Below, piece after piece: positions 3,640 through 24,011 of a DNA stretch of 24,418 nt. The first letter of the stretch is position 1; every line of letters starts with the position of its first letter. The notes beneath the pieces are model-generated. The model made no database searches. It had not been told where the DNA came from and was given only the letters and a program-made list of their open reading frames with translations. Origin of the DNA: a virus; IMG/VR virus record IMGVR_UViG_3300009173_000077, positions 1 through 24,418 of that record; one strand, given 5' to 3'. Made by a program: the position numbers and the translations under genes.

Positions 3640-3649
3640 CAACAACCAC

Positions 3650-3711
3650 AACTGCTGGGGGGTAAGCAAGTTATAACTCCTATTATTAAGAGCTTATCCC
3701 CTTAAGCAGTT
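3650..3711. terminator. Bidirectional terminator hairpin between converging gene blocks
   Basis: AACTGCT (3650-3656) pairs with AGCAGTT (3705-3711). After a small internal loop, GGGGGTAAGC (3658-3667) pairs with GCTTATCCCC (3692-3701) with one G-T pair, giving about 17 pairs around a 24-base loop. On the plus strand it ends in TTTT, fitting an intrinsic terminator for the replication operon. On the minus strand the first arm lies in the last codons of the 892 aa gene and no clear T-run follows, so termination there is less certain. It sits exactly where the two blocks meet. Confidence 0.8.
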
Positions 3712-6364
3712 TTAAACTTGCTTTCAAATCTGGTGACATACCTCTATATCCATCTTTGTTAACTTTTGGTTCTGGTTGCCTATTGAAAAGCAAAGCATTA
3801 TATTTTTTAGTAAAATCATTTGGATAAAGCTTAAGATAGTGAGTAATTAAATCCCTACCTCTTCCAGCTTGTAGAGATGGTAAGATTTTATTAACAGTGG
3901 TACCAGCAAATGTTCCCCATTTATACTTGTCTAATCTCTGCGCTTTTTCATCAAATTCATCAGCGAAATTTACATTACCAAAAAGTATTTTATTTAATGT
4001 GGACTCGTCTACATCAATTAACCCATGAGCAATTAAGGCTCTCTTTACAGCCCCTATTGTTGGACCAGTAACTTCACCTAATAATCCAAATGTACTTAAA
4101 TCGTCATTGTCATACTCTGTTATGTCCTTTGCGACATTTTGAAGTCTATTAAGTGTTTCATTCTCAAATATATTAGATAAATCAGAATTAAAAACAACAC
4201 TACCAAGAGTAATTAAAGACATAATCCCAGCTTGTCTAGAAAGCCATTGTATTTCTTCTGATTCAAATCCTTCCCCAGCTAAATATGCTTTATGTGCTTT
4301 AGACAACTGGTCGTATTGAGTTTCGGCTAAAGACATTGGATAATGTAACAAGTGGAAAGCGACTTCTGATATTGCACCTGCGTTCCCACCTTTTTTTAAC
4401 CTCTTTGCTATAACCTGACCATCTCCCATCTCTTCAACAGTACGCCATTCCCCTCTTACCATTTTAGCCTTAGCATGAGGAGAGTATTCATAAGCCCAAC
4501 TATTAACCATCTTCAAAGCCCAGTCTTTCGATTCTTTTTTGGCTACATCACTCTTAAATCCCATTCTTGATAATTTATTATACTGATGATATAGAGCTGT
4601 TCTATACATCCATTGTCTTTGTTTATTTTCAGTATATCTATGAAAAAACAATCCTTTTTCAACTGTCCATTGACCAGCTTTTAAAAGAAGGTCTTTAACT
4701 GGCGTCCCATTAAAAGTCACTTTCCCAGTGAGTGGGTCAAAGTCATGTTTCCCTTCACCAAGCATACTTGTTAGTTTACCTGTACCCTCTGCGTACAATT
4801 CAGAAGCAGCGTCTGTAAATAAGAACCCAGCCTCTTTTTCAGCTTGGTCAACCCAATCTTTAAAGCCAATCTTATTATCACCAACCCCTATTGCTTCATT
4901 ATGCATAAAGGCTCTAACTGCGTCTTGCGAAGATTTGTGACCTATCCTTGTATAAAAATGCATTATTGAAGCTGCGTTCTTAATAGCACCAGTAATGTTT
5001 AATCCCATTGTTGCTGCCGTTTGCAAGGAGTTTAAAATTGTAACTGCATTATTAGCAAATGCGTTCCTCCCCTTTGTCCCCTCTGTAAAAACAGCATATT
5101 GCTCTTGGATAAACCTTGACAGCCCATTTGTAAAATTTGTTTCATTAGTTGGGAGATTTTTTAGAGTCTTTAAATAAGCATCTTGAATGTGGACTAATTT
5201 ATTAAATTGTATTGCCTCATTTGAATATGTAGTAATAGCAAGAATAGGGTCTTTTTCATAGGAGTTACTTAAGAGTGGATTCCTCTTCTTTAATTGGTCT
5301 GGTGTATCTATAGGGGCTTCTAGAATTGATTTAATAATATCATTGGTCGTTTCTTCAATATTAATAGTATTCCCATTGCGAGGGTCAAAAGACTCTGACA
5401 TTTTTTGCTTTATTTGATTTAGATTGTCAAACAAAACATGGGGATAATAACCTTCTGTTTTAATATCCATTTCCAATGATGAAATTGCCTCTTTTAATCT
5501 TGCCTTAACTTCTTTCCCCTTCGCTGGATTGCCTAAGCTATATTTAAATTCCGCTAAGTCTGCGTACTTGTTTAATCCCATAGCGTAAGTAAGACCAATC
5601 TTTTTCAATAAATCTCTTCCTGCTTTAGCGGCTAATACCGTGTTGGTATCATAGCTTTTCTTTTTCCATACCCCATTCTGCCTTGTTCTAAAAGTGTCTT
5701 TATGGATAGATTTAAAACCATCAAATTCGTTATTTGCAGCAGCTGGCATCGAAACCAATTCTTCAAAATCTCTTAATATTTGACCATCTTTATCTGAATT
5801 AACAATCTCTTCAAATTTATTAGCCCATTTATCATATGATTCCTCAGTTTCAGCAGTAATCATTTTTTGACGGGCTTCCTTAATTCCCTTTAATTTAGTT
5901 TTGCCAACTTTTTTACCAAATGATGACATATAAGCTTCGACAAGGTTTAGGGATATTAATGCATTAGCACTTCCAAGCGTATTTATATTAACCCTTTCCT
6001 GATTTAATATATTGTTCATAGAATTATGAAGCATTCTAGAAAACGGGTCTTGTTTAGAAAGCCCTTCTGGGACAACCCATGCTAAATTAGAAAACTTACC
6101 ATTTAAATTGTTAGCATAATGGTCTATCCACCTCCCTGCTAAATTAATTTGAGATTCTGTGAAGGGGACATCTGCTGCGAATGGTCGATTCATTTTTTCT
6201 AACATCCATTCTCTAAACCCCTGCTCTGAATTCGCTTCCATAAATTCACCATTTACACGGAATCTTTTATCTATAGAAGGATTTGTTCTCCATTTTTCAT
6301 AAAGAGCGTTCCCCTTTTCTTCCCATACAAGTAATTCGTTTTTACTATGACAAGATACAGCCAT
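3686..6364 (-). CDS. Large probable virion or ejection protein (892 aa)
   Basis: A predominantly helical protein, last in the late block. A Gly/Ala/Asn-rich, moderately hydrophobic stretch (about residues 443-475, containing TAATMGLNITGAIKNAASI) resembles segments common near the C-terminus of giant phage polyvalent or internal virion proteins. A second hydrophobic patch (SLITLGSVVF) lies further on. No catalytic motif is recognised. The ATG at 6364 directly follows the TAA of the 3077 aa gene, in the same frame and with GGGGGT just upstream, so translation probably reinitiates there. The 3' end runs into the terminator hairpin. By position I infer that it is packaged with, or works beside, the giant protein; the family name is uncertain. 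Confidence 0.85.
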   Translation of the reverse strand: MAVSCHSKNELLVWEEKGNALYEKWRTNPSIDKRFRVNGEFMEANSEQGFREWMLEKMNRPFAADVPFTESQINLAGRWIDHYANNLNGKFSNLAWVVPEGLSKQDPFSRMLHNSMNNILNQERVNINTLGSANALISLNLVEAYMSSFGKKVGKTKLKGIKEARQKMITAETEESYDKWANKFEEIVNSDKDGQILRDFEELVSMPAAANNEFDGFKSIHKDTFRTRQNGVWKKKSYDTNTVLAAKAGRDLLKKIGLTYAMGLNKYADLAEFKYSLGNPAKGKEVKARLKEAISSLEMDIKTEGYYPHVLFDNLNQIKQKMSESFDPRNGNTINIEETTNDIIKSILEAPIDTPDQLKKRNPLLSNSYEKDPILAITTYSNEAIQFNKLVHIQDAYLKTLKNLPTNETNFTNGLSRFIQEQYAVFTEGTKGRNAFANNAVTILNSLQTAATMGLNITGAIKNAASIMHFYTRIGHKSSQDAVRAFMHNEAIGVGDNKIGFKDWVDQAEKEAGFLFTDAASELYAEGTGKLTSMLGEGKHDFDPLTGKVTFNGTPVKDLLLKAGQWTVEKGLFFHRYTENKQRQWMYRTALYHQYNKLSRMGFKSDVAKKESKDWALKMVNSWAYEYSPHAKAKMVRGEWRTVEEMGDGQVIAKRLKKGGNAGAISEVAFHLLHYPMSLAETQYDQLSKAHKAYLAGEGFESEEIQWLSRQAGIMSLITLGSVVFNSDLSNIFENETLNRLQNVAKDITEYDNDDLSTFGLLGEVTGPTIGAVKRALIAHGLIDVDESTLNKILFGNVNFADEFDEKAQRLDKYKWGTFAGTTVNKILPSLQAGRGRDLITHYLKLYPNDFTKKYNALLFNRQPEPKVNKDGYRGMSPDLKASLKLLKGISS

Positions 6365-9300
6365 TTAACAACCCCCACTTTCTTTAGCAAAAATATTCAC
6401 TTTCTTTTTCTTTAAAGTCCTAACTTGTGTAATTCTACCAGCGACCTTTTTATCAGTAGTAAATGTAGGATGTATCGCCATGTCTTGTTTTAAAGCATTA
6501 AGCATAGGGTCTGAATAAAATACCCCATCCATCTGAAGCATACTTTTAATAGGGTCAGGATTACTTATCCTACTCCAGTCATATACATCATTCCCCTGTT
6601 CAAAATAAATGTCAGCTCTTAAGTCGTCTGGGTTTTTACCAAGCTTAGTTAATTCCCATTCACTTACTAGATTTCTCATAATATCAGTTCTTCCAACCTT
6701 ACTGTCCATTAGGTGCTTAAAAACATTATCAAGCATCACACTATTTGTTTGGAAAACTGGTAATTGTTTTTCACCACTAGTGGTATATTTAGTTGGAGAC
6801 ACACTTGGGGCTATTAAATCAGATATAAGCAATTCTAAGGCATCCCTTCCCCTAGCGGAAGCATTATTTTGACCCAATGACATTTCTAGTTTAGGAAGCC
6901 ACTCATTAATAAAAGTATTAAATATAAATCCATTTTCAACAGTCCCAGACTGCTTATAAATCCCTTTCTTAAAAACAGAATTAGACTTAGCTTTTTGACC
7001 TCCCTGAATACTTACGGCATACATACTTTTTATTAAATGATTCCTTGCTATACTATAATTATCATACGAACCAGCTGCGTCTAAAGCCTGTTCAACAGCC
7101 TGTACGTCCTTCATTGTAAGTCTACTTAAAGCCTGTCCGTACTTAACACTATTTTCAGTTGCTTCAAATTTAGCCATAGGTTCCATTTCTATAAGATAAT
7201 AAAATCCTTTTTGCTTTTTAATTACATCCCTACTTGTTTTGTTACCCATGAACTCTAAATCAAAATAACTTATATTCCCTTTGGCTAGAGACTGCCCATC
7301 TAAATCTTTATGATTGTTTCCCTGCATAGCTTTATCACTTAACCTGTAAAGACCAACTACTTTAGGCTTATTATTTTGTGCTAACGATTTCAACCAACCT
7401 AAATTTAAATCATTTCCATCTCCTCGTTGGATTTGATTACTGCTCTTCCCCTCCTCAATCATAAATGATTCCATTCTCAACTTATCCATATGCTCTACGG
7501 ATGCCTCTGTTCTCCCTATCTGCCTCTTTAAACTATGAATAGCCCCATTACTTGGGAATGAATCATTTACCTCCCTATTAAGAGATTTCTTTAAATCAAT
7601 TATTCTCTTTTGAAGTATTTCGTCTATAAAACCATTTCGTATAGCCCTTTGCACATTAATATCATTTTGATTGTGTATCTGTTTTAAATCTATAGTTTCT
7701 GGTTCCTTCCCTGCTAGTATAGCCGCATCTCCTCGATATTGAGATAACTCAACAGAGTATTCAAGATTATCTATAAAAGTCCCAATGGATTCCTGTAGTG
7801 CAACTTGACTTCTTGTTCTGGTAGAAACCCCACCATAAGAAGATTGTGAAAATTTTGTTTCCATTAACCCACTTAACATATTCCCAGGAATAGATATATC
7901 TGTACCTTCCTTCACTCCCTTAACACCATCAAATTTAATTAAAGGCTTTAAAGACACCCATGACTCTGAGCCAGAATAAATAAGATTATCAAGTAATTCT
8001 TTTTGAGTATTATAACTTCTTAGGTGGGTATCTTTAAAAAATGTTTTAAGAAAATCTTCCTCAAGTTGGTGCCTTTTCTTATAATCGGTTTCTCTTTGAA
8101 TCTGTCTATATATTTTTTCAGCAACATATCTAGTTGATGTTTTTGGATTAAGCAGCTGAGATATATCTAAATAGGCTTTTTCAAATTCATGTGGGAAAGG
8201 AGTTCTTTTTTGCCCTGCTTCCCAAGTATCATTTGACACCATTGATGCTCTTTTTAATGTACTGAAAATAATTTTTAATGACTTTCTCTGCATATCTTTA
8301 CTTTTCATAAGAGAAGCCACGTCATTCTTACCACTAAAGGGTTCTTTACTAAAAATATCTGCTTCCTCTGTGATTAATTTAGATAATACTTGACCCTTAT
8401 CAAGAGACAGCAATGATTTCTTTGTAGCATCTGATAGCCTACCATCAAGAACAAAATCAAGTAAAATTTCTGTGGTATCAAATATAGGTAATTTACCACC
8501 ATGATAATCAACTGAAGCCTGAGCAGTAAACATAAATTTCTGCAGCCACTCCATTGTCCCCCCAGTTGTATTTAAATCCGCTCTATCCCAAAAGTTCTTT
8601 AGAAGTTTATTGCCACCTTCACCAGTAAAAGTTAAGCCCATTCTGGAAGCCCAAGTAAGAGCCCCTCTTTGCCCTATAAAAGTACCAATGGCTTTTTGTT
8701 GAGATTCAATTTGACTAGCATATTTAGTATAGCCAATATCCGTAGAAACTCTCCCTACTTCTCCTTCTACTATATCGAGTCCAAATGGGTTACTCTTTTC
8801 GAATGTCTTTACTCCATCCATAACTTCTTTACTAAAAGCTGGGAAATCAGCAATCTTACCTTGTTCTAATAAAAAAGCTCTAAGTATTGCTTTATCTGGT
8901 TTTGTCTGGGAATAAACATGGTCTCCATCATTATCTCTTTGCATAATAGTTCTCAAATCCTGAACATTTACTTCCATAAGTCCATTCATTTTTTCATTTA
9001 TACGCTGAACCCTATGTATAACTTGGTCTTTTCCTAGAGAAGGAATTGCTGTATTCAACATTCCAAATTGGATTTTAGCATTCTTAAGAGGTTTCCATAA
9101 TTTGCTACCCATAGAATTATTAGTACCTTCAAGCCTTATAGTAGAACCTTTGTGATGTGTATATCCCTGAACCATAAGTTCATGCACCTGAGAATACGAC
9201 AATTTATTATTTGTAGCAATTTCATTTAATTTATCTAGAGAATTTGAAATTTTTCTACGCCAATCCTTTCCACCGCCTGCCCCAGAATCGTACATATCTT

Positions 9301-12300
9301 TTATTTTTATATCTATTTCTTTTCCATTCTCATCTACTCCTTTAGCAGTTGTATTTTCAATTTTCCTTGAAGTTTTATCACCATCTACCATTTTCATTTT
9401 ATCATAAAATGCTGATTGAAAATCGTAAACTCCCCTAAGCCCCTTTCTCCCTTCCATCATAACAGTCCAATCAACTCCATTTTCATCTCTTATAATTAAG
9501 AGTTCGCCCTGTAAGGCATTTGCAGTTGTGCCTATAGGTCTGTGTGTTGATGATTTCCCAACTCCAACAGCTCCGTGTTGAATTGCAATTCTTTCATAAG
9601 CATCTCCTGTCGCCCTATTTTTATCATATAAATTTATATGGAGTGGGTTTTCTAATGTACCTAGAGCATCTGGTGCAGTAATAAAATCCGAACCAGTTTC
9701 TATCATATTTTTACCAACATTCTTTATTATAAAATTACTAGCAAATCTATTAACAGCTTGTGATATATATGGTAATTCAGAATTCCCGCCAAACTCTAGA
9801 ACCAATTTCAAAGCCATTGTATGCTCATCAGTCAATGGATTCCCATTCTCAACCTCAACATCCATAAGCCTTCTCATTACATCTGTTGTAATCTTCCCAT
9901 CATTACCGTGAAGGAGAGATAGTTCAACTATCTTTTCAGCAAACTTAGACTTTGAGACCCATTGATTGTTTATATGAGGAGATTGCCAGTCAAATTGAGA
10001 AGATGGGACAATTGTTTTGCCACCAAGAGTTGATGTAAACGAAGCAGAGAGTTCATCTAGATTTATATACATCTTATTTTTATCTTGACCAGCCCTGAGA
10101 TTCAAACCATCATGTGTTTTTTGTGGTGATATAGGAACCCCACGTTGAAAACTATCTCCCCATAATGTTTTAGCAGCAGATGTCCCTATTGCAATATCCG
10201 AGTCCCCCATTTCCCTTGCAATACTTGGGTCATATATTAAATAACCCTTACCAAGTAATTGATTCCTTCCAACAGCAGCTATTATTGTTTTAGCCCCATT
10301 TGGACCTTTAATAAAATCAACATCAAAAGAACTTCTATTAGCCATTACATAAGCCATAAGACTCTCTGATGCATATTTCACACCATCGAAGCGAGAAGAT
10401 ATTAAGCTACCGCTTTCTGCTAATTCTAATTGACTCTGTCTGATTAAGGATATGAGAGCTTTATCTGGGCTTCTCTTTGAAGACTCTACGTCTATTTGAC
10501 TTTGGTAATTCCTATCAACAGTCTTTCTATTATTTAATTGATGTTGGTCTTTTGCTCCAATCCCATCAACCCAACTCTCGGCATCATTTTCATCAAATAC
10601 ATGGAGTTTTAACTGATAGCCCTGATTTCTTATTTTATCAGCTTGACTTTTTGGTAGTCCAGATAAATTTTCAGAAATATAATCATTTGCCTTTATAGAT
10701 ATAGGCGTAGTCGTTCCACCGTCAGAAAGAAATCCCCTCTTGAATATATTAGCTTGTATTTTATAAATAGCCTGCTGAGTTCCATCCCCTCCTGGACTTA
10801 ATACATCAAAAAGCTTAACGAGTTCACTTCTTTTCCCAGTTCCATCCAGATATGGGAATAGGACTTTTAATTCAACAGTTGACCTAAGCAAATCATTAGT
10901 GCTATCGAGAGTTTTCCCGTTCAAAGACTTCATATACTCATTAAATGTCTTTTTATTGGCACCTGAAATATTGGGGTCATTATTATAATCCTTTACAAAT
11001 TCATCATAAGCCCTAGTAATCGCTATTAGATTCTTGTCACTAAGGGGGATTACCATTTTATCATTAGGTGAAAGTCTTACATAAGCTATTGGCTCACTCC
11101 CTATTCTGCCACCTTCAGATGATGCTATAAATTTAGTTATCTCTGTTTCGCCAAACTCTCCCCACCTTAGCATATCTGTTAAATCAGCCTCAGCATTTTG
11201 ACTGACTCTGGTCGCATGAACAAGAGAATCTTGAATTTTATCAACATTATTATAAGTGGATAAATTAACTTTTCTTGCTACTCCATCTTTATCAATAATA
11301 ACAATGCTTTCCTGAAGCCTCCCCATTACTACACCAGTTCTATCGCTCCACTTAACAGATGCAAACCTTTTTTCAGGTGCATTTTCATTTACTCTCATAA
11401 CGCCAGAAGTAGCCCCATCCATAACTTCAAGAGTTATACTAGTGCCTTTAACTTCAGCGTCAAACGCATTTAAAATATTTATTGCGTGTTTGTCCTTAAA
11501 CTCTTTCCATTTTTTATCAGCTTCAGATTTATCTGGGTATCTTCTATAAATATATTTCTCAACCTCCTTGAATTCTCCCTTATGGTCTGCTAATACTGCG
11601 TCCTTGAATTCTTGTGGAATTTTTCCATCTTTAGTGAAACCAGCTTCCTGACCAATTTCAATAAGAGTCTTAGTTCTGTGTCCCGTATCCATCTGCTGTT
11701 GAACATTGTCAATCATAAGAATCCTATCGGGAGATGACTCTCTTTTATTCGAAATTACCTCTCTATTAATATCTAAATTAATTTCATTAAGAATGTCCTT
11801 TATCTCTGAAAAGGCAAATTTACCATCTCTAACATAATCAATTAAATCATCTACGGTTTTTAGCCTCTCATCTCCTTTAAAAACCTCATCATGGAATCTT
11901 CTTATGAGATTATTAGTATGTTTTTGAATAGAACCAAGGCTAAGACCAGACTTGTCTCCATTTATTAAACTATTAATAATCTTTTCAAATTGATTAGATT
12001 GATGAGTCTCCTCACCAGACATCCTTAGAAGCTGTTGTTGGAACGGTTCAAATATATATTGTCTCAATTGAAACTGGTCCATATCCTTAATAAGTTGCCC
12101 GTCTGAAGTTTCCACCATACTCTCAAGGCTAAGTTCCCATTTTTGATTCTCAACCTTTATAGATTCGCTAATTGTATCAATTCTTAGTATCATTTCGTTT
12201 ATCTGTTTTAATAGCTCTGCACTAGCCTCCCCCCTTCCTTCCTCTAATGATTTTGTTAAATCAACAACCTTTTTCCTTACCTCAGCAAGTTCTTCTACTG

Positions 12301-15300
12301 GGTTTGTTACTTTACCAGCGCCTGTATTCTCAGTATTAAATGAATTAATAACATTCTCAGTTTGCTTAAAAACTGCTTCTAAATCCCTTGCAAATTTTCC
12401 ACCGCCAGCTTCTTTTAATTTATTTAAATTTTTAGGGACAACAGTTTGTAAATCTAAGATTGTTTGAGAGTTTAATAACTCAGCCATTTTTACAACCTCA
12501 GAAATATGGTAGTCTGGATTTAAAACATTCTGCCCTTCTGCCCCTTGCCTAGCTTCTTCCCTTATAACCTCATCAATACCTACTATGTTGTCTTTTCCTA
12601 ATACATTCTCAAGCGTATCCCTTGCTTTTTCGTATCTAGCAATATCTTCTGAGGTGTTTTTATCTGCCTTCATACTCTCAATAACAGCCTCCCTGCTAAT
12701 CATCTCAATCTTGCCTTCAGAGTTAATACGAGTGACATCATTCTCAATCAAATAACCAGCTGCCCTATATGCCCTTTTATCAAACCCCTTGACATTAAGA
12801 AGCTGAGTTGTTAACATGTCCCTAACTCTAGTTTGGTCAAGAAATGCTGGGAGTCCTTCTGCTCCAAAATTTTCAGCAAAAATATTTTTAATTGTATTTA
12901 ACTCATCAGCCTTTAATTTGCTGTCACTAGTCCTCTTAACGCTTTGCCCATTAGTAGAAAGTCTCCTTAAGCCAACAAGTGTTTCGACCTGTTTTAATAC
13001 ATCAAGAGCCTCTTGTACCTTAGTAAATCTGACAGCATCATTTTCAGCACTTATTTTCCCTTCTTGATAATCCATATAATCTGGGATTCTCATTCTCATG
13101 CTTTCCATATCATAATATTCATTTTTACCATTTGGAACCATGAAAAATTTATCAATACTTTTTGTTGCGTTTTGCAACTTCTCAGTATGCCCAGACCCAG
13201 ATGCTATCATCATAAAACTATTAGATGCTTTTACAAACTTATTATTAACGATGTGTTCCCAAAAAGGATTGCCTTCTTGCAACTTATTTAAATTCTTAAG
13301 TTTACCTCCATATTCTGCGTCAAGTTTCTGCATCCATTTATTAGTAATATCATTAGCTAACCCAGTATATTCATCAAATGTTATTTTCCCTTCCCCTTGC
13401 TCAACTCTCTTCTTATTATAAGATTCAAATGCGTCTTCAACCTTTATCTCTCTATAAGCGTTTATCATATTAAGAGATTCCATGCTCTTAACTAGATGGC
13501 TAACATCACTTAAAACACCAAGATTTTGCCCAACTTTATCAGTTGTTATAAACTTAGCAGTCAATCCTCCGTCATCGTTAGTAATCATTTCTAAACCAAG
13601 AACATCACTTAATTCCTTTAAATAATTTTTATAAACCCTTTCACCAGCAAGAGCAACCTCATTGGTTATTTCAACAAGTGCCCCATGATAACCTACTTCG
13701 CCAATTGTTTTTCCACCAGATGTCTCAAGCTCTATTCCGCTAATTTTCTTATAAAGTGAATCTAAATTTTCTCTGCTTAATTTCATTACATCTATAGGCT
13801 GAAATCTATCCCCTTCTTTGAATTGCCCCATCATATTATACTGAGATTGCAAGTGAAGAAGTGTTTTATCGTTTTCATTGAGATGCTCAAATGAATTCCC
13901 AGAAGGGTCAGCCTTACCAGCTTTCGCTTCATCAAAAGGCTTATATACCTGCTTACCAGCTTTAGTATTCCATGAAGTTGCCCCAAGTCCAACTAATCCG
14001 TCTGCATCATTATGGAATCGAATAAAATCAGTTAATTTTTCATCGCTAAGACCCATTCTTGCTGATAAATTTTGCAATGGAGACAACTTATTAAAATAAG
14101 CCGTTTGTTCACTCTTTCCCCAATGACCTCTTGATTTAGTCATTATAGCAGACATAAAAATATGGGAAGCAAGCTCAGATGATTCTAATTCACCCCATGC
14201 ATCTGGGTCTGCAATCCAGGAATTAGTAGCAAGAACACCAACTGCCATCCTGCCAGTGGATTTTCCTAAATCTTCAATATATTCTGGTTTCCATAACCTC
14301 ATGAACTCCTTAGAAGTTGCCGTATTCATCTTTTTAAGAAGAGAGACTGCTTCTCCCCCCGTCATTGTCCCATCATCAATAGCGTCTACTAGCTTTCTAC
14401 CAGAAAAGCTTTTATCCCCAACTTTCCAAAAAGCATCTTTAATTGCTGATGAACCATGAACAGCTTTCCCTTCTCCCTCAATCATAATTTTTAATAAACC
14501 CTGTACGTCCTTAGTCCCATTAGCGACATCCTTAGCAAGCAGAGAATCATAGTTAGTTTTCTTAAACCTTGAAAAGAATCCCTTTATCCCAGTTGACATC
14601 CTATCACTTCCACCCCCAGGTATTTTTCGTATAAGTGGAAACATTAGAGACATAAGAGCAGAGTGACCAAGCGTAGATGTTGTGCTAAACTCCTCATCTT
14701 TTGATTGCTCTTTTATTTTACCAGCAATCATACCATGCATAGTCATAATAGCCATATCATTGGCTGCCATTCCCGCATATTTAGCAATATTTTCTCCCAT
14801 CCACATAGTGTCCATATTTGGAAACTTATTAAGGAGTCCCCTCGTAACTAATTCGCTAATATCATTAACATATTGACCACTTTTACTGCCAAGATTATCA
14901 ACTAAATCTGTAGATAATCCCCTAACTACATTGTCATCAACTTCATGACCAGCTTTTTTAAATACCCCTTTTACTATAGAATGAACCTCTTTTGTGAGTG
15001 TACCATGAGCAGCAGCTACATCATCAACTGAGCCCTTCATCTGGTTTATCCATCTAACCCCAGTAGCGGCATCATCTGTCATCTTCCCTATTTCTTTTGT
15101 AATATGACCAGCAAGTTGGCTTTCGCTATTTACAATAGTCTTTCCAAGTGCCCCTTCTGCCGTCTCAGCCAATACCTTTTTCATAGATGATGAAGGTATA
15201 ATCCCAGGTTTTACAATCTTTTCACTAAATTCCTGTACCGCTTTTCCTACAAATTTATTCGAGCCCTTAACCGCTAATCTTGAGCCCTTACCAAGTAAAG

Positions 15301-15598
15301 AAAAAGGTCCAACTACTGGAGCCATTAATGAAAGACCTTCACCAAGAATATAACCAGACTTCTGTGATGGATTCATGTTTTCCCACTTATAATCATCGTC
15401 TTCTAAAAATCCACTAGCACCCCAACTTAATCCAGCTGCTGCTCCCCACAGAGCAGAACCCATAAAGTCATAAATACTACCTGAATCATCAGGCTCGTTT
15501 CCACCTAATTGACCATATCTCTCAGCTAAGTAATCCTGGGTAGATGATTTTTTCTGTTTTTTATTTAGAGTGCCTAAATAATTTTCTGTTAATGGCAT
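6365..15598 (-). CDS. Giant virion protein with probable DPBB-type RNA polymerase core (3077 aa)
   Basis: The N-terminus has two Gly/Ala-rich hydrophobic segments (about 45-64 and 84-112) like those of ejected proteins that contact membranes. Helical and coiled-coil-like regions follow (for example about 1100-1165). Residues about 2000-2400 look like a nucleic-acid polymerase: AIPSLGKDQVIHRV (P2186, H2195), then MQRDNDGDHVY with Asp2222, Asp2224 and Asp2226, then ASVDYHGGKLP (Asp2364). The DxDGD triplet followed by a VD..K motif is the signature of double-psi-beta-barrel RNA polymerases (cellular beta prime, QDE-1/RDR, YonO, crAss-like phage virion enzymes). I infer a polymerase packaged in the capsid and injected to transcribe early genes, as N4 does with an unrelated enzyme. 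The rest is unassigned. The start has an AAGG site 5 bases upstream. Confidence 0.9.
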   Translation of the reverse strand: MPLTENYLGTLNKKQKKSSTQDYLAERYGQLGGNEPDDSGSIYDFMGSALWGAAAGLSWGASGFLEDDDYKWENMNPSQKSGYILGEGLSLMAPVVGPFSLLGKGSRLAVKGSNKFVGKAVQEFSEKIVKPGIIPSSSMKKVLAETAEGALGKTIVNSESQLAGHITKEIGKMTDDAATGVRWINQMKGSVDDVAAAHGTLTKEVHSIVKGVFKKAGHEVDDNVVRGLSTDLVDNLGSKSGQYVNDISELVTRGLLNKFPNMDTMWMGENIAKYAGMAANDMAIMTMHGMIAGKIKEQSKDEEFSTTSTLGHSALMSLMFPLIRKIPGGGSDRMSTGIKGFFSRFKKTNYDSLLAKDVANGTKDVQGLLKIMIEGEGKAVHGSSAIKDAFWKVGDKSFSGRKLVDAIDDGTMTGGEAVSLLKKMNTATSKEFMRLWKPEYIEDLGKSTGRMAVGVLATNSWIADPDAWGELESSELASHIFMSAIMTKSRGHWGKSEQTAYFNKLSPLQNLSARMGLSDEKLTDFIRFHNDADGLVGLGATSWNTKAGKQVYKPFDEAKAGKADPSGNSFEHLNENDKTLLHLQSQYNMMGQFKEGDRFQPIDVMKLSRENLDSLYKKISGIELETSGGKTIGEVGYHGALVEITNEVALAGERVYKNYLKELSDVLGLEMITNDDGGLTAKFITTDKVGQNLGVLSDVSHLVKSMESLNMINAYREIKVEDAFESYNKKRVEQGEGKITFDEYTGLANDITNKWMQKLDAEYGGKLKNLNKLQEGNPFWEHIVNNKFVKASNSFMMIASGSGHTEKLQNATKSIDKFFMVPNGKNEYYDMESMRMRIPDYMDYQEGKISAENDAVRFTKVQEALDVLKQVETLVGLRRLSTNGQSVKRTSDSKLKADELNTIKNIFAENFGAEGLPAFLDQTRVRDMLTTQLLNVKGFDKRAYRAAGYLIENDVTRINSEGKIEMISREAVIESMKADKNTSEDIARYEKARDTLENVLGKDNIVGIDEVIREEARQGAEGQNVLNPDYHISEVVKMAELLNSQTILDLQTVVPKNLNKLKEAGGGKFARDLEAVFKQTENVINSFNTENTGAGKVTNPVEELAEVRKKVVDLTKSLEEGRGEASAELLKQINEMILRIDTISESIKVENQKWELSLESMVETSDGQLIKDMDQFQLRQYIFEPFQQQLLRMSGEETHQSNQFEKIINSLINGDKSGLSLGSIQKHTNNLIRRFHDEVFKGDERLKTVDDLIDYVRDGKFAFSEIKDILNEINLDINREVISNKRESSPDRILMIDNVQQQMDTGHRTKTLIEIGQEAGFTKDGKIPQEFKDAVLADHKGEFKEVEKYIYRRYPDKSEADKKWKEFKDKHAINILNAFDAEVKGTSITLEVMDGATSGVMRVNENAPEKRFASVKWSDRTGVVMGRLQESIVIIDKDGVARKVNLSTYNNVDKIQDSLVHATRVSQNAEADLTDMLRWGEFGETEITKFIASSEGGRIGSEPIAYVRLSPNDKMVIPLSDKNLIAITRAYDEFVKDYNNDPNISGANKKTFNEYMKSLNGKTLDSTNDLLRSTVELKVLFPYLDGTGKRSELVKLFDVLSPGGDGTQQAIYKIQANIFKRGFLSDGGTTTPISIKANDYISENLSGLPKSQADKIRNQGYQLKLHVFDENDAESWVDGIGAKDQHQLNNRKTVDRNYQSQIDVESSKRSPDKALISLIRQSQLELAESGSLISSRFDGVKYASESLMAYVMANRSSFDVDFIKGPNGAKTIIAAVGRNQLLGKGYLIYDPSIAREMGDSDIAIGTSAAKTLWGDSFQRGVPISPQKTHDGLNLRAGQDKNKMYINLDELSASFTSTLGGKTIVPSSQFDWQSPHINNQWVSKSKFAEKIVELSLLHGNDGKITTDVMRRLMDVEVENGNPLTDEHTMALKLVLEFGGNSELPYISQAVNRFASNFIIKNVGKNMIETGSDFITAPDALGTLENPLHINLYDKNRATGDAYERIAIQHGAVGVGKSSTHRPIGTTANALQGELLIIRDENGVDWTVMMEGRKGLRGVYDFQSAFYDKMKMVDGDKTSRKIENTTAKGVDENGKEIDIKIKDMYDSGAGGGKDWRRKISNSLDKLNEIATNNKLSYSQVHELMVQGYTHHKGSTIRLEGTNNSMGSKLWKPLKNAKIQFGMLNTAIPSLGKDQVIHRVQRINEKMNGLMEVNVQDLRTIMQRDNDGDHVYSQTKPDKAILRAFLLEQGKIADFPAFSKEVMDGVKTFEKSNPFGLDIVEGEVGRVSTDIGYTKYASQIESQQKAIGTFIGQRGALTWASRMGLTFTGEGGNKLLKNFWDRADLNTTGGTMEWLQKFMFTAQASVDYHGGKLPIFDTTEILLDFVLDGRLSDATKKSLLSLDKGQVLSKLITEEADIFSKEPFSGKNDVASLMKSKDMQRKSLKIIFSTLKRASMVSNDTWEAGQKRTPFPHEFEKAYLDISQLLNPKTSTRYVAEKIYRQIQRETDYKKRHQLEEDFLKTFFKDTHLRSYNTQKELLDNLIYSGSESWVSLKPLIKFDGVKGVKEGTDISIPGNMLSGLMETKFSQSSYGGVSTRTRSQVALQESIGTFIDNLEYSVELSQYRGDAAILAGKEPETIDLKQIHNQNDINVQRAIRNGFIDEILQKRIIDLKKSLNREVNDSFPSNGAIHSLKRQIGRTEASVEHMDKLRMESFMIEEGKSSNQIQRGDGNDLNLGWLKSLAQNNKPKVVGLYRLSDKAMQGNNHKDLDGQSLAKGNISYFDLEFMGNKTSRDVIKKQKGFYYLIEMEPMAKFEATENSVKYGQALSRLTMKDVQAVEQALDAAGSYDNYSIARNHLIKSMYAVSIQGGQKAKSNSVFKKGIYKQSGTVENGFIFNTFINEWLPKLEMSLGQNNASARGRDALELLISDLIAPSVSPTKYTTSGEKQLPVFQTNSVMLDNVFKHLMDSKVGRTDIMRNLVSEWELTKLGKNPDDLRADIYFEQGNDVYDWSRISNPDPIKSMLQMDGVFYSDPMLNALKQDMAIHPTFTTDKKVAGRITQVRTLKKKKVNIFAKESGGC
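8400..9600 (-). other. Putative RNA polymerase catalytic region within the giant protein
   Basis: Covers residues of about 2000-2400. The absolutely expected element is the metal-binding loop DxDGD, here DNDGD at 2222-2226 (bases 8921-8935). About 36 residues before it, a Pro (2186) and a HRV segment sit where RDR/QDE-1 enzymes have their PCLHPGD region and cellular enzymes have RxPTLHR. About 140 residues after it, SVDYHGGK occupies the place of the AVDxPKTG motif of RDR-type enzymes. Bounds are approximate. A first barrel with catalytic lysines should lie upstream (perhaps near LQGELLI), but I cannot place it with confidence. Confidence 0.6.
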
Positions 15599-15605
15599 AT
15601 TAACC

Positions 15606-17462
15606 TTATTTAAATTTTGCTAAAGCTTTTAATGCTTCTTTATGTTCTGCTTCTGCTTCTTCTTGAGTCATACCAGTTGTTGCTGTTTGAAATCTTATTA
15701 ATAAATCTAATAATTCCTGAGCATCATCTGCTTTATGAAAACCTTCCTGACTACTCCACCCACCTTCAAGAAATCTATCTATAGACGCTAAGGCTTCTTC
15801 CTTTATATATTTCAGATTATCGGGGTTTTCCAACATCTGGTCATTAAATACTTTAGTATTATGTGCTCCGTAATTATGCTCTTGAAGCCTATTAGTAAGA
15901 GCATCTTCGCCAACTTCATCCATTTCATCTTTCATGCGGAGATAGGAGACCATTGATTTTTCCCTAGTATCAAAGAGAGCCTTTTTTCTAGCCTTATCTG
16001 TCATCTCTACAGTAGACTTAGCAGATATATGTTCTTGCGTATCTCCGAGATTACTCTCTATTTCGGCTTCGTGACCAAACTTAGTCTTTCCTTCTGCCTC
16101 AAGCCATTTATCGTATTCTGGTCCAAGGTCTAAATTAGCAATCTCAGTTGGAGAAAGATTATTATTTTTTGCAAAAGTTTTTTCTAGTTCTATAAAATTG
16201 GCTATTCTCATCTCAGGGGATACCCCTTGATTCATATCATGGAAAGTTTGAAGCATCTCAGGGAATGCTTTCATGCTTTTTATCGCAGTTTTAAAAGAAG
16301 CCTGTGGGTCTCCCATAAAAACACTTTCTAATTTGTCATCTTTTATTCTACTATATTCTGCGTAGTTAAATTTAAAATTCTCCCATGCAACTGGAGATGT
16401 TTCACCCAATAATCTATCTAAATTATAGTCCCCCTCTTCGTTCCCAGAATATTCCATTATCTTATCGTACATTTGAACAGGGTTTTCTATACCAGCCATT
16501 ACCTTAACAAGAAGACCTAACTCTTTTTTCTGGTTAGGCGAAAATTCATAGTCTTTCTTGCTACTTGATTTATTCTTTTCTATATACTCTACAAGGTCGT
16601 CAAAGTCTCCAGGTTCTTCAAGCGTAAACTGTGACATTATTATTTGACCTTGAGTGGCGATAATCGCCTGAGAAGGCATCAACAACCTAGTAGTAGCTTC
16701 AAGAGCAGCTCTCTCCCTATCAGCAGGGTCATGTTCTGCAAAAGTAAACTTAGCCCCATAGCTTTGATTCCACCCAAGCCCCTTCATTTCTTTACCAGTT
16801 ATTGTCGATACGTATGTGTCGCCTTCTGCTGTTTGAGCCATCCCCATAAAATCTTTAAACTCTGGACCTTGTAATATCTTATTTTCTCCAGCAAATTCTA
16901 ATTCTCTTTCCTTGAGTATTCTTCCTTGATTTTCAAGTTCGAGGAGTTTACTTTTAATAATTGCACTTTCATTTTCATATACTTGAGCATTCGCCATATT
17001 AACACCAGCTTGCCTCCCTGTTGACTCAAATATATCGTAACTAAGATTTTCTAAATTTGAAGTCATGTGCAACTGTTCTTTACTAGCCCCGAATTTTAAT
17101 AGAGAATCCTCTAGTCTCATCATATCTTCCCTGCTATCTTTCACCTTACCCAAAGATACATTGTATCGTATACCAGCGGCTGTTTCTTTACTCTTTAACT
17201 CAGCCATTTTTATATCACGTTCAAGGTCATACTCCTTCCTAGCCTTATCTAGTAATAATGACTGAGCGTTTCTCTCTTTCTCCAACTCAAGTGTAAAATT
17301 TCTATTTTTTTCATCTCTAAATTCAGCCCTTCTCTCAGCAGCCAATTTAGCCTCTCTATCTTTCGCATTTTCATTTATCTTAAAAGACAGGTCGAAAAGA
17401 TTATCCATCGCCTCCCCAAAAACGCTTTTACTGTAATTAATTGTTCTAAGTCTTGGGCGCAT
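15606..17462 (-). CDS. Probable internal virion or ejection protein with N-terminal coiled coil (618 aa)
   Basis: Residues of about 30-95 form a long charged helix (EAKLAAERRAEFRDEKN and LELEKERNAQSLL) typical of a coiled coil. The remainder is acidic, largely helical and has no Cys-based or catalytic motif I can name. The frame is open to an ATG at 17474, but I prefer the ATG at 17462 because GGAG lies six bases before it; both overlap the end of the Hint-domain gene. It sits between that gene and the giant protein, with a 7-base gap to the latter. Position, length and composition resemble the middle ejection protein of podoviruses (in the sense of T7 gp15), but that is inference from order, not sequence match. 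Confidence 0.85.
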   Translation of the reverse strand: MRPRLRTINYSKSVFGEAMDNLFDLSFKINENAKDREAKLAAERRAEFRDEKNRNFTLELEKERNAQSLLLDKARKEYDLERDIKMAELKSKETAAGIRYNVSLGKVKDSREDMMRLEDSLLKFGASKEQLHMTSNLENLSYDIFESTGRQAGVNMANAQVYENESAIIKSKLLELENQGRILKERELEFAGENKILQGPEFKDFMGMAQTAEGDTYVSTITGKEMKGLGWNQSYGAKFTFAEHDPADRERAALEATTRLLMPSQAIIATQGQIIMSQFTLEEPGDFDDLVEYIEKNKSSSKKDYEFSPNQKKELGLLVKVMAGIENPVQMYDKIMEYSGNEEGDYNLDRLLGETSPVAWENFKFNYAEYSRIKDDKLESVFMGDPQASFKTAIKSMKAFPEMLQTFHDMNQGVSPEMRIANFIELEKTFAKNNNLSPTEIANLDLGPEYDKWLEAEGKTKFGHEAEIESNLGDTQEHISAKSTVEMTDKARKKALFDTREKSMVSYLRMKDEMDEVGEDALTNRLQEHNYGAHNTKVFNDQMLENPDNLKYIKEEALASIDRFLEGGWSSQEGFHKADDAQELLDLLIRFQTATTGMTQEEAEAEHKEALKALAKFK

Positions 17463-18465
17463 AAATTGCTCCATTTCTAAGGTTTTTCTCTCTTCGGAAG
17501 GTGTTATTTAAGATATTATTATCACCAAGCCCAGAAACCACATACCCATTGGCGATATAATTATGAGAACTTCCATGTATATCATGGGCATCTACTTCTA
17601 GATTAAAGTAATTGTCAATGTATTTTTTAACAATCTTAATGTCGGCTTTTGATTCTTTTATCTCAGACCAATTCCCATTAAAGAATATTGGATGATTAGG
17701 TGTTCCCTCAAGGACACCTCCAACAATAGCGACTTTTACATCTCTATAAACGGGGTGTATTAAACTCTCAGTAACAACTCCTGGGGTGAAGGATTTTGTC
17801 TTTTCATCGAAAGTTAAAATTAAATCACCTTCAATAATGTCTTGTATTTCCCTTTCACTACCATCAGACATAAATATCTTTGTTCCTTCTACAAAACAAT
17901 CATATGTTTCTGTCCATCCCATTGGACCAAACACCCAATCCTGTCCATCATTATCTGTCCAAGTATCCCCATTGTATGGGGTTCCAGAGTATCCAGATGG
18001 AGTAAATTCTGGTCCATTAGGGTCAGTACCATCATCACCATCATTATCATCATCATCATTATTACCAGCATTTGGGTCGTAATTCTCATTAACTGTCGTA
18101 TCTCCAGCTAGAATAGAATCACTTATTGTTCCCATATTCTCGTCAAGCCATTTAGTTTTATTCTTATATTGTCCATACATAGTATCATCTAAGTTCATTC
18201 CAACTTGTGCATTAGCCCCATCACTTAGTTTCTTTTCAAGCTCAGTCTTAGCCCCCATTGTCTCGAATCCTTTCCCAGTTTGATTTATCTGAGCATTATT
18301 CATCGTAAGGCTGTCTTGTATTAATGATTTATTTCCAGAGAAACTTCCCCAAAGATTTTTATCAGAAGATTTATCGTAATCAAAAAGAGTTCCACTAACT
18401 TCGCTATCTAAATTAAAACCAGCCTTAAGGTCTGATAAACTTGTATTTACATCATCATATGGCAT
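17446..18465 (-). CDS. Virion-region protein with C-terminal Hint (intein-like) domain (339 aa)
   Basis: Three parts are visible. Residues 1-130 are a soluble Ser/Thr/Asn-rich region. Residues 131-175 are an Asp/Gly/Pro-rich linker, followed by a Trp-rich patch (DWVFGPMGW). From Cys190 on is a Hint domain: CFVEGTKIFMSDGSE (block A), TPNHPIFF (255-262, block B) and HNYIANGYVVSG (301-312, final block). Hint domains drive N-S acyl shift and self-cleavage or splicing. Here the final block ends VVSG instead of the usual HN plus nucleophile, so full splicing is unlikely; cleavage before Cys190 or covalent transfer to a partner is possible. Start ATG 18465 has a weak AAGG upstream. Its 3' end overlaps the next gene. 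Confidence 0.88.
   Translation of the reverse strand: MPYDDVNTSLSDLKAGFNLDSEVSGTLFDYDKSSDKNLWGSFSGNKSLIQDSLTMNNAQINQTGKGFETMGAKTELEKKLSDGANAQVGMNLDDTMYGQYKNKTKWLDENMGTISDSILAGDTTVNENYDPNAGNNDDDDNDGDDGTDPNGPEFTPSGYSGTPYNGDTWTDNDGQDWVFGPMGWTETYDCFVEGTKIFMSDGSEREIQDIIEGDLILTFDEKTKSFTPGVVTESLIHPVYRDVKVAIVGGVLEGTPNHPIFFNGNWSEIKESKADIKIVKKYIDNYFNLEVDAHDIHGSSHNYIANGYVVSGLGDNNILNNTFRREKNLRNGAIYAPKT
17530..17898 (-). other. Hint domain coding region
   Basis: Encodes residues 190-312 of the 339 aa protein. It is about 123 residues long, typical of a minimal Hint domain with no homing endonuclease insertion. The nucleophile Cys190, the Thr-x-x-His of block B (Thr255, His258) and the HNY of the last block are present. 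The penultimate His and terminal Asn needed for C-terminal cleavage are replaced by Val-Ser-Gly. About 27 residues follow the domain. Confidence 0.85.
18030..18063. repeat. ATC/ATT trinucleotide tract encoding an Asp/Asn-rich linker
   Basis: A run of CAT/ATC/ATT triplets (plus strand) that reads as GAT/AAT/GGT codons on the minus strand and gives the NNDDDDNDGDDG segment at residues 135-146. It is a low-complexity, probably length-variable linker that separates the N-terminal part from the Hint domain. Confidence 0.75.
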
Positions 18466-18492: not shown

Positions 18493-19422
18493 TTAACCCT
18501 GACCGCTTCCAGGTGAATTATATGTAGCATTAAATGCATCAGGGTTAACTTCGAATGAGTCATTATTTTCAGCATAACCCCTAGCGTTCATTATGAGTTG
18601 ACTTGCATTAGTCCCAGTTTTTACTGCATTCTTCCCTTTATCAAATAAGTTGAGAGCCTCCTTCGCTCCTGAAACATCGAGTCTTCTTAACGCTTCTGGA
18701 CTAAGACCCTTTCCTTGAACCTTCTTATCTACTGCTTTTCCAATAAGTGCCTTCCCTTTATTCCAAACTTTGCCCTTGCTATCGGTTTTTGCACCTTTTC
18801 CTATTACCTTTACTGCATCTTCTCCTGCTCCCTTCCCCCATCTTGCACCTAACTTTTTGCCCCATTCAGCCGTATCTCCCCCAAACTTCTTTGCCCCTTC
18901 TAACGGTGTTTGTTTTGCGAATAGAGTAGTGCCATCTGCAGCGGTACCAGCAACCTCAGCACCATATTTTGAAGCAGAGTTTGCAAAATTATAAGCAGTC
19001 CAAGCGTCCTTACCAGCATCTACCCACTGATTCTTGTCAAAATCTTTATCAAACTGTTCTCTATCCTCATTTATTTGTTTAGCGTCATCTTTAAAATAAT
19101 TAATATCATCTACGTTTATGTCATCTGGTCTATCGTATTTATCAGCGTGCGCTTCTCCAAGTTCATTACCAACCCTACTGCCTATACCAGCAGCTCCAGC
19201 TATAACAAGAGCCGAGCCTCCAGTAAGAAAAGCTGCCGCCCCTAACCCAACAGCACCAAAAAATCTCCCAAGCCCAGATTTCCATGATAATTTATCTTTA
19301 TAAGTTTGGTCTTCGGCTTGGGATTCCTCTAACTTATCTGCATTAGACCTCATCGCCACAGATTGATTTAGTTTAGCCTGCGCTCTCGATGTTCCTGTGT
19401 TTTTATTTGGGTCTGGTGGCAT
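18493..19422 (-). CDS. Small probable internal virion or ejection protein (309 aa)
   Basis: A Gly/Ala/Lys-rich protein with one clear hydrophobic segment at residues 54-82 (GAVGLGAAAFLTGG and ALVIAGAAGIG), after a polar N-terminus rich in Gln, Asn and Lys. The remainder is charged, with many Lys-Gly pairs (KGKVWNKGKALIGKAVDKK). This layout resembles the smallest ejection protein of podoviruses (in the sense of T7 gp14), which forms a channel in the outer membrane, but no sequence family is recognised. AAGGA seven bases before the ATG at 19422 supports the start. An 83-base gap with a hairpin precedes it, so it may begin a separate transcription unit. Confidence 0.83.
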   Translation of the reverse strand: MPPDPNKNTGTSRAQAKLNQSVAMRSNADKLEESQAEDQTYKDKLSWKSGLGRFFGAVGLGAAAFLTGGSALVIAGAAGIGSRVGNELGEAHADKYDRPDDINVDDINYFKDDAKQINEDREQFDKDFDKNQWVDAGKDAWTAYNFANSASKYGAEVAGTAADGTTLFAKQTPLEGAKKFGGDTAEWGKKLGARWGKGAGEDAVKVIGKGAKTDSKGKVWNKGKALIGKAVDKKVQGKGLSPEALRRLDVSGAKEALNLFDKGKNAVKTGTNASQLIMNARGYAENNDSFEVNPDAFNATYNSPGSGQG

Positions 19423-19505: not shown

Positions 19506-20183
19506 TTAGGTATCATAGGTCACCTCAACTACAACATTCATATTGTCAACTTGTCCTGAAATATTACCAGCACCTTGCCTTTCGGAATACATTGTTAATA
19601 CATCACCAGCAACAAAATTATCTATTCCCCTCGCCTGTACTTTACTATTCTTGTGACCCGTAGCATTAGTACCAAATTCAAGGCTTGTCTTAAATTTAGA
19701 AGTCCCATTTAACATTGCATGCGCCATGTTAGTTAATGCCCCTCCCTGATTGACTACATTAACTGAATTAAAACACATTGATATTCCAGTTATAGAGCCA
19801 GGTCTAATCATTACATACCCATTGGTAGCTGTCATTAATGTTCCATCATTGTAACTTAAATATTTAGTTGATGTAAACGCAGTCGACTCCCCAGCATCAA
19901 AATATGCACGTTGACCAATTAAATTACCTTTTACGGTTAAGTCTCTACTAAATTCAGCGTTTCCATCAACTTTTAAATCTTTTTCAATAGTTTCATTACC
20001 ATCTCTAGTAAAATTCACCCACCAAAGTATACCCTTTTGCCTCCTGAATAAAGAAAGTCCCTTATTTTTTCTAAGAGCAATTAATTCTTCTCCATCTGTA
20101 ATGGTACTTTTAGACGGAGTTCCATCTTTGAAGGCGATATTTGCTCTTTGAGTATTCCTACTTCTCCTTAAAGAACTATCCAT
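19506..20183 (-). CDS. Probable tail fibre-like structural protein (225 aa)
   Basis: The middle part has short beta-repeat units (KDLKVDGNAEFSRDLTVKGN, residues of about 68-87), the xLxVxGN pattern common in phage fibres and adaptors. The C-terminal part is rich in Gly, Thr, Asn and Val and predicted beta, suggesting a trimeric globular or fibre tip. The N-terminus is basic (MDSSLRRSRNTQRAN). The ATG at 20183 overlaps the stop of the 851 aa gene (TAATG), so the two are coupled. It could be a receptor-binding protein, a short fibre or a decoration protein; the beta repeats favour a fibre. Confidence 0.8.
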   Translation of the reverse strand: MDSSLRRSRNTQRANIAFKDGTPSKSTITDGEELIALRKNKGLSLFRRQKGILWWVNFTRDGNETIEKDLKVDGNAEFSRDLTVKGNLIGQRAYFDAGESTAFTSTKYLSYNDGTLMTATNGYVMIRPGSITGISMCFNSVNVVNQGGALTNMAHAMLNGTSKFKTSLEFGTNATGHKNSKVQARGIDNFVAGDVLTMYSERQGAGNISGQVDNMNVVVEVTYDT

Positions 20184-22738: not shown

Positions 22739-23127
22739 TAGTCACGAATCTCTACATGAACTAGGTCATCAAATTTATTATCTGCTATCTCTCCATCAGA
22801 GTCCCAGTCACCACCCCAACGAATTTTTAACCCTAATTGCTGACCTATACCTCTAATCATTCCACCCATATAATGAAATCTTTCTCTGTCTTCCCAGTCT
22901 ATGGGGTATGGGGCAAGGTCTACTGCTTTGCCTTCCATATGCCTTGAATATTTAACCTTCGTTGCCCCTTTTTCAAGGAGTTCAGCTTGTCTTTCTTTGC
23001 TCCTAAGCCCCTCAATAATAGTAACATCCATAATCTTAATTAATTCATTAAGGACACTAACCACTCTCTTGTCAACGCCAGAGAGTCTCTCTCTTGACCT
23101 TTTGCCAAATCTGTAATGCTTAGGCAC
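22738..23127 (-). CDS. Endolysin: M15-family zinc peptidase (L-Ala-D-Glu or D-Ala-D-Ala type)
   Basis: A compact 129 aa enzyme predicted to cut peptide cross-bridges of the host cell wall at lysis. It shows the M15 core: IEGLRSKERQAELL (38-51), then SRHMEGKAVDLAP (61-73) with zinc ligands His63 and Asp70, and DLVHVEI (121-127) with His124 as the third ligand and Glu126 nearby. There is no signal peptide or wall-binding domain, so release would depend on a holin. The start is GTG at 23127, overlapping the previous stop as TAGTG, a coupled start. It directly follows a cluster of small membrane proteins, consistent with a lysis cassette. Confidence 0.92.
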   Translation of the reverse strand: MPKHYRFGKRSRERLSGVDKRVVSVLNELIKIMDVTIIEGLRSKERQAELLEKGATKVKYSRHMEGKAVDLAPYPIDWEDRERFHYMGGMIRGIGQQLGLKIRWGGDWDSDGEIADNKFDDLVHVEIRD

Positions 23128-23690: not shown

Positions 23691-24011
23691 TCAATGATTT
23701 TTCCCATTTACTCGACTTAAACTTCCTCTTATTTCAGACACTTGGTTATCTAAGTCGTTTATTTCCTTGTTTAAGGCATCAAACTTCCTGTCTAATTTAT
23801 CATCACTCGCATTCCATCTGCCAATTAATTTAATAATCATTCCTTCCATGTTTTCTAAAGTCTCAGATTGCCCTTTATTTTCTATCTTTAAATGTTCTAA
23901 TGTTTCCTGCTGAGCAGAAGCTTTGTTCGACATCTGCACCACCAAGTAAACAAACATTGCGCCAACTACGCCTATCATTCCTGCTTCGCCATAGACTGCC
24001 ATAAAATCCAT
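23691..24011 (-). CDS. Membrane-anchored coiled-coil protein (106 aa)
   Basis: An N-terminal transmembrane helix (GMIGVVGAMFVYLVVQM, about residues 11-27) is followed by a heptad-like charged region (DDKLDRKFDALNKEINDLDN). The layout is a membrane anchor plus coiled coil. The open frame extends to a TTG at 24035, but I chose the ATG at 24011: it shares a base with the previous stop (TAATG) and has AAGGA at suitable spacing. Size and topology match its upstream neighbour. Hemolysin XhlA-like or holin-associated proteins have this form; a holin, antiholin or spanin-like role is possible but not shown. Confidence 0.8.
   Translation of the reverse strand: MDFMAVYGEAGMIGVVGAMFVYLVVQMSNKASAQQETLEHLKIENKGQSETLENMEGMIIKLIGRWNASDDKLDRKFDALNKEINDLDNQVSEIRGSLSRVNGKNH

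Follow-up and report, generated by a model that had tools for sequence, protein, structure and literature searches.

A predicted single-chain two-barrel RNA polymerase core within a giant protein of a phage ejection gene block

The late gene block and the conserved motifs of P1

The virus record IMGVR_UViG_3300009173_000077 of IMG/VR, a stretch of 24,418 bases analyzed over its whole length and referred to here as the window, carries early-type genes for a DNA methyltransferase, DnaB and a RuvC-like resolvase on its plus strand. The minus strand holds a late block made up of lysis genes, P7, the tail-fibre-like P6, P5, P4 (with a Hint domain), P3, P1 and P2. Our subject is P1, the product of an open reading frame (ORF) of 3077 codons (Table 1). 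Based on the fold predicted for its second half, P1 is probably a DNA-dependent RNA polymerase of the single-chain, two-barrel kind that forms part of a giant ejection protein and would be packaged together with P2 and injected into the host. Relatives retain the arrangement P7, middle-size proteins, P1, P2, which corresponds to the layout of podovirus ejection blocks (gp14-15-16 of T7; gp52-51-50 of N4). An initial annotation of the window, made from its sequence, had placed the P1 gene in a block of ejection-type proteins away from replication genes; this was borne out by the conserved tail/ejection block and by the position of the replication genes on the opposite strand.

The same annotation proposed a polymerase core in P1 from three motifs. 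DNDGD was found at residues 2222-2226 as described, and the chance expectation of D-x-D-G-D in a protein of P1's composition is 0.09. The spacing of the P...HRV segment also held, with HRV (residues 2195-2197) located 27 and P2186 located 36 residues before DNDGD. The third motif, SVDYHGGK, lies 140 residues after DNDGD as claimed, but its final K and most of its HGG are not conserved; the invariant residues of this region in the family alignment are Q2360 and D2364. Three invariant lysines further upstream (K1770, K1784 and K1810) were absent from the annotation's motif list. A GRKGLRG segment near residue 2057, considered as a first-barrel lysine motif, was dropped for lack of conservation.

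Relatives of P1 were collected by scanning IMG/VR with a degenerate DNA pattern for RDNDGDH[VIM], followed by alignment-guided scans. The pattern scan gave one true relative, a 3016-amino-acid protein on a 58.5-kb virus contig (L003), and three chance matches (L002, L004 and L005). Alignment-guided scans yielded 9 and then 32 loci, with about 30 relatives of P1 at 18-32% identity, the full-length members being 2943-3168 amino acids long. Clustering of the 25 full-length family sequences gave 14 groups at 50% identity and 9 at 35%. By our own reading of the sample numbers, many of the contigs appear to be marine, and the source phage of P1 is probably marine and uncultured.

All 24 members that reach the motif column keep D-x-D-G (D2222 and D2224, 24/24; G2225, 25/25), and D2226 is kept in 23 of 24. 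The family motif reads RD[N/F/H/Y/G]DGD, and the canonical DFDGD is present in some relatives (L018, L034 and L043); the middle position is Y in QDE-1 and F in cellular enzymes. Core positions kept in at least 23 of 24 sequences where sampled include K1578, K1620, D1738, G1739, N1767, G1768, K1770, K1784, G1785, K1810 and D1870 in the first half and P2186, D2191, R2196, N2211, D2214, R2216, Q2220, R2221, D2222, D2224, G2225, D2226, D2251, Q2360 and D2364 in the second. Residues 1-500 of P1 equal the core in conservation. Only L043 and L044 have a second D-x-DGD (KDGDGDG), at residue 554 in the N-terminal half of the giant protein, which is probably a chance or calcium-loop match.

Table 1. Features of P1 and of the surrounding late block, in window coordinates
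Feature	Position	Strand	Basis
P1, 3077 amino acids: helical N-terminal half, predicted two-barrel RNA polymerase core in second half, C-terminal region with the sole cysteine last	6365..15598	-	ORF; about 30 IMG/VR relatives of similar length
P1 RNA polymerase core as modelled, residues 1480-2640	7679..11161	-	AlphaFold2; best PDB matches are single-chain two-barrel RNA polymerases
Proposed first double-psi beta-barrel (DPBB-A), residues 1735-1860, with K1770, K1784 (KG[YF]) and K1810 (AK)	10019..10396	-	Lysines 25/25; assignment from order and strands
P2186...D2191...HRV (2186-2197), start of second-barrel signature	9008..9043	-	P2186 25/25, D2191 24/24, R2196 24/24
DNDGD (2222-2226), proposed catalytic metal-binding loop of second barrel (DPBB-B)	8921..8935	-	Conservation and model
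30-residue helix (2291-2320), candidate bridge helix	8639..8728	-	DSSP of model, H812-841; name by inference
SVDYHGGK (2362-2369), with Q2360 just upstream	8492..8515	-	Q2360 and D2364 23/23
N-terminal half of P1 (residues 1-1180), mostly helical; candidate for the ejection or channel part	12059..15598	-	Low-confidence model
C3077, only cysteine of P1	6368..6370	-	Single cysteine within last six residues in 25/25 full-length relatives
C5, only cysteine of P2	6350..6352	-	Single cysteine at position 3-12, window and 18 relatives
P2, 892 amino acids, always the next gene after P1; candidate for a second ejected protein	3686..6364	-	Conserved neighbour, 27-45% identity
P3, 622 amino acids, no cysteine; candidate ejection protein	15606..17474	-	Matched in 3 relatives
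P5, 309 amino acids, no cysteine, glycine/alanine-rich hydrophobic stretch; candidate ejection protein	18493..19422	-	Inference
P7, 851-amino-acid tail protein at upstream end of block	20183..22738	-	Conserved upstream of P1 in most relatives; weak Kelch match

Predicted fold of the P1 core

An AlphaFold2 model of the core, built from 25 sequences, reached a mean predicted local distance difference test (pLDDT) score of 77.3 and a predicted template modelling (pTM) score of 0.79. Its best match in a Foldseek search of the PDB was gp66, the packaged polymerase of phage phi14:2 (6vr4; E-value 2.9e-6, probability 1.00), with Arabidopsis RDR2 second (E-value 4.7e-3, probability 0.90). When VIA-align was run on Foldseek's candidates, ranks 1-15 were all taken by single-chain two-barrel RNA polymerases, with Z scores of 10.3-15.4 over 432-719 residues. 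Among them were QDE-1 (Z 15.4, root-mean-square deviation [rmsd] 6.4, 455 residues aligned), maize RDR2 (Z 15.2, rmsd 5.6, 479 residues), gp62 of the Thermus phage P74 (Z 10.8, rmsd 5.5, 438 residues), gp64 (Z 10.7, rmsd 5.5, 432 residues) and phi14:2 gp66 (Z 10.3, rmsd 6.9, 719 residues); identity to QDE-1/RDR was about 12%. The next group consisted of cellular largest subunits with Z scores of ~6-7, aligned mostly to model residues 484-937 in the second-barrel region. The gap between these groups, together with the coverage, makes an artefact of common arrangement unlikely.

In the model, DNDGD is located in a loop between a helix (2212-2218) and a strand (2227-2231), and cellular largest subunits show the same helix-loop-strand order. 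From the secondary structure and the whole-model alignment, we infer that DNDGD lies inside the predicted second barrel. At the level of predicted fold, the whole-model match indicates two barrels and a bridge helix in one chain, and the sequence supplies the D-x-D-x-D metal motif and the conserved upstream lysines of single-chain two-barrel RNA polymerases. The match is to two-barrel enzymes, over 430-719 residues, and not to the T7-like single-subunit fold of N4-like polymerases. Taken as a whole, the predicted fold (QDE-1, RDR2, gp62/gp64 and phi14:2 gp66) and the conserved aspartates and lysines support the polymerase core first proposed from motifs. Of the structure prediction suggested as a check of that proposal, the fold match stood, whereas the assignment of DNDGD and the lysines to individual barrels follows from order, secondary structure and whole-model alignment.

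The best match in BFVD was an unnamed viral protein, A0A516L9L2, of which two stored pieces match the core (E-value 5e-23) and the N-terminal model (E-value 5e-11); it is probably a member of the P1 family. The model of the N-terminal half (pLDDT 62, pTM 0.45) is too poor for claims about its fold, and the other half of A0A516L9L2 was its sole good BFVD match. Fold matches to the core were also found for A0A516M3R5, A0A516LUR1, A0A516LSI3 and similar BFVD entries, some of them, like A0A516L9L2, with E-values better than those of any solved structure, and these unnamed proteins look like unannotated members or sister families.

Terminal cysteines, crAss-like cassettes and neighbouring genes

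P1 and the protein encoded directly downstream, P2, each contain a single cysteine, at the ends that would face each other (Table 1). In P2 it usually stands in an M-x(1-4)-C-N context and was found near the start in 19/19 proteins (one incomplete), including one tallied without a cysteine, in which a start at the upstream GTG gives C3. A single terminal cysteine occurred in 0/52 other ORFs of at least 400 codons on these contigs. Cysteines number 0.03 per 100 residues in P1, 0.10 in P2 and 0.80 in other cysteine-containing ORFs; at 0.8%, the probability of exactly one cysteine in 3077 residues is ~5e-10.

A similar pattern was observed in crAss-like phages. The only cysteine of phi14:2 gp67 (1797 amino acids) is C1797, the polymerase gp66 (2180 amino acids) has only C3 and C2179, and gp65 (1421 amino acids) has only C3. 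The same terminal cysteines, along with some internal ones that are mostly in the polymerase, are present in crAss001, DAC15 and cr111_1, and the facing pattern was seen in four Steigviridae cassettes. The pattern is not accounted for by adjacency of the genes, since the gp67-like gene is on the opposite strand in crAss001 and DAC15. In Fpv1 (4401 amino acids, only C4400; next protein C3 and C1461) and cr55_1 (4551 amino acids, C4026 and C4548; next protein C5 and C1884), the 4400-4550-amino-acid protein was taken from its size and order as a fusion of gp67 with the polymerase; in both, the fused junction is without the pair and the remaining junction keeps it. Less clean are crAss002 and crAssphage ZA. 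There the polymerase annotation falls within a fusion protein of 4245 or 4091 amino acids, whose first cysteine is at position 35 or 24, with more further on, and the protein before it has C2019 or C1961 at its end.

Judged from the crAss-like cassettes L057, L058, L059, L062, L063 and L064, cysteines that face each other from the ends of separate giant cargo proteins, and are missing at the apparently fused junctions of Fpv1 and cr55_1, seem to be general among polymerase cassettes of crAss-like phages. A single junction of this type is seen in the window, between P1 and P2, compared with the three-protein cassette of crAss-like phages. The N4 polymerase and its two partners have no cysteine, nor do T7 gp15 and gp16, while T7 gp14 has C2; P23-45 gp96 has none in the 4431 residues read. 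The absence of cysteine from N4-like polymerases is known and has been related to the crossing of tail and periplasm (PMC2784036, PMC3715699), and disulfides between tail proteins have been described in the crAss001 virion (PMC10172136). No mention of facing terminal cysteines was found in the literature searched, which did not cover the main crAss polymerase paper, and the crAss001 structure paper is without the word cysteine (PMC10172136). The pattern may be a general rule that is undescribed within that literature.

Elsewhere in the window, P4 (339 amino acids, 17446-18465), which adjoins the ejection genes, has a C-terminal Hint domain (Vint, E-value 6e-5, below Pfam's cut-off) that begins at its single cysteine, C190; since Hint domains can self-cleave, P4 may be processed. 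The early plus-strand and late minus-strand blocks converge at 3640-3686. The lysis genes of the window (22738-23127 and 24011-24331) encode an endolysin with 88% identity to that of L026 (939-1316) and a lysis-region protein with 88% identity to that of L036 (1186-1506), while the giant protein is only 25-29% identical to those relatives, which suggests recent exchange of lysis genes.

A packaged polymerase and its alternatives

Several results weigh against identifying P1 as a DNA-dependent RNA polymerase. Single-sequence searches of Pfam, PHROGs and the PDB with P1 gave no credible match, and a search of the PDB with the A6 profile gave no meaningful one. The link to known polymerases that had been expected from profile searches did not appear, as hhalign gave no significant similarity between P1 and a profile of nine crAss-like polymerases (P = 0.27), its best local alignment setting DNDGD on DFDID. 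Nor did P1 and P2 match crAss gp65, gp66 or gp67 profiles significantly in hhalign (P2 with gp65: probability 2.5%, P 0.018); no T7-like Pfam or PHROG match was found for P1, and tblastn with the window core and the L018 relative against 50,697 phage records, crAss-like phages included, returned none. The silence of the single-sequence searches would suit a chance occurrence of DNDGD in an unrelated fold, an explanation made extremely unlikely by the invariance within the family and by the fold match. A further difficulty is that the top VIA-align scores, those of QDE-1 and RDR2, go to RNA-copying enzymes, leaving the type of template ambiguous and fitting an RNA-templated enzyme or a two-barrel DNA polymerase of the PolD type. 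QDE-1 also copies DNA, phi14:2 gp66, the top Foldseek match, is described as DNA-dependent and the source is a double-stranded DNA phage, so that we give this alternative a small chance; the absence of PolD from the matches listed excludes nothing. We consider it just as improbable that the two-barrel domain has lost catalysis and plays a structural or nucleic-acid-binding role within an ejection protein. Activity is only predicted, and N, F, H, Y or G can occupy the central position of the motif, yet that position varies among known two-barrel enzymes also, and few core residues are as constrained as the aspartates and lysines across relatives of 18-30% identity. A real polymerase that stays out of the virion, made late or serving replication, has precedents in two non-virion single-chain two-barrel enzymes, P23-45 gp64 (PMC10770324) and YonO (PMC5467207). 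P1 is encoded in the tail/ejection block beside cysteine-free proteins, away from the opposite-strand DnaB, methyltransferase and resolvase, and shares the near-total loss of cysteine common to ejected proteins of N4, P23-45, T7 and crAss-like phages; we therefore regard this alternative as unlikely, if slightly less so than the preceding two. The conserved position in this block makes a packaged polymerase the best reading, and packaging of P1 is likely in view of its gene position, size and cysteine avoidance.

Whether the terminal cysteines join P1 to P2 is a separate matter, which does not share the high probability given to the polymerase. The C-terminal cysteine of P1 and the N-terminal cysteine of P2 could form a disulfide that links the two cargo proteins in line for passage down the tail, and the polymerase may be released by reduction in the host cytoplasm; to this proposal, drawn from sequence patterns, we give slightly less than an even chance. 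The disulfide would need to form after assembly in a reducing cytoplasm, and terminal cysteines can serve other ends, both of which count against it. A rather less probable but still substantial alternative is that the pattern reflects mere avoidance of cysteine in an oxidising periplasm, the terminal residues serving metal, lipid or other attachment within the virion. The N4 polymerase and its partners, which work without any cysteine, are in keeping with such avoidance. It leaves unexplained one retained cysteine at facing ends and its absence at fused junctions, and no signal peptide or lipobox was seen by eye at the start of P2.

Under the packaged-polymerase reading, P1 would be a late product that enters the head along with P2 and other proteins that lack cysteine. 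P1 and its partners would be threaded through the tail, the N-terminal helical half of P1 forming or entering the ejection channel, and P1 would be injected ahead of or with the DNA. The polymerase, for whose core at ~1480-2640 a bridge helix and two barrels are predicted, the first carrying the invariant lysines and the second the D-x-D-G-D metal loop, would then refold and begin early phage transcription independently of the host enzyme. If the disulfide exists, P1 and P2 would be one covalent thread, which could be formed by oxidation in the released virion and from which the polymerase would be released by host reduction. Tentatively, the same might apply to injected giant RNA polymerases at large, with cargo nearly free of cysteine except at facing ends and C-to-N disulfides making one ordered thread that is cut by host reduction; the P1-P2 pair and the crAss-like gp67-gp66-gp65 set could then be separate cases of one principle, a possibility that we rate a little short of even.

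Fusion of a polymerase core to a giant virion protein, which the initial annotation had thought unusual, is not so (N4, 3500 amino acids; P23-45, 5002 amino acids [PMC10770324]; Fpv1, 4401; cr55_1, 4551). As predicted for P1, phi14:2 gp66 and its Crassvirales counterparts have a single-chain two-barrel core and are encoded among giant virion proteins that hardly contain cysteine, with terminal cysteines facing each other across protein ends; they differ in lacking significant sequence or profile similarity, in having DFDID instead of D-x-DGD, in having two giant partners instead of one of 900 amino acids and in a genome of ~100 kb, compared with 58 kb for the longest sampled relative contig with early and late genes. 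QDE-1/RDR share the predicted fold (Z ~15) but are cellular RNA-silencing enzymes without an ejection region. In P23-45 gp96, a two-barrel polymerase is likewise fused to a giant ejected virion protein (PMC10770324), there at the N-terminus of the tape measure of a long-tailed phage and in P1 in the second half of an ejection-block protein. The N4-like gp50 of Schitoviridae is a packaged polymerase of ~3500 amino acids from an ejection block and has no cysteine, but it carries T7-like polymerase motifs (PMC2784036) and is not a two-barrel enzyme. YonO of SPbeta, likened here by description, is a single-chain two-barrel phage polymerase (PMC5467207) of ~100 kDa and not giant. As a polymerase, P1 is a new branch of the known two-barrel enzymes that goes unrecognised by sequence, and its giant size is not new.

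These results add a two-barrel phage polymerase family that was wholly missed by the profile libraries searched, and suggest that virion-borne RNA polymerases are more widespread than the N4, crAss-like and Thermus phage cases. The terminal-cysteine pattern offers a simple idea, open to direct test, of how several very large proteins might leave a capsid in order through a narrow tail, a problem that crAss-like phages pose as well.

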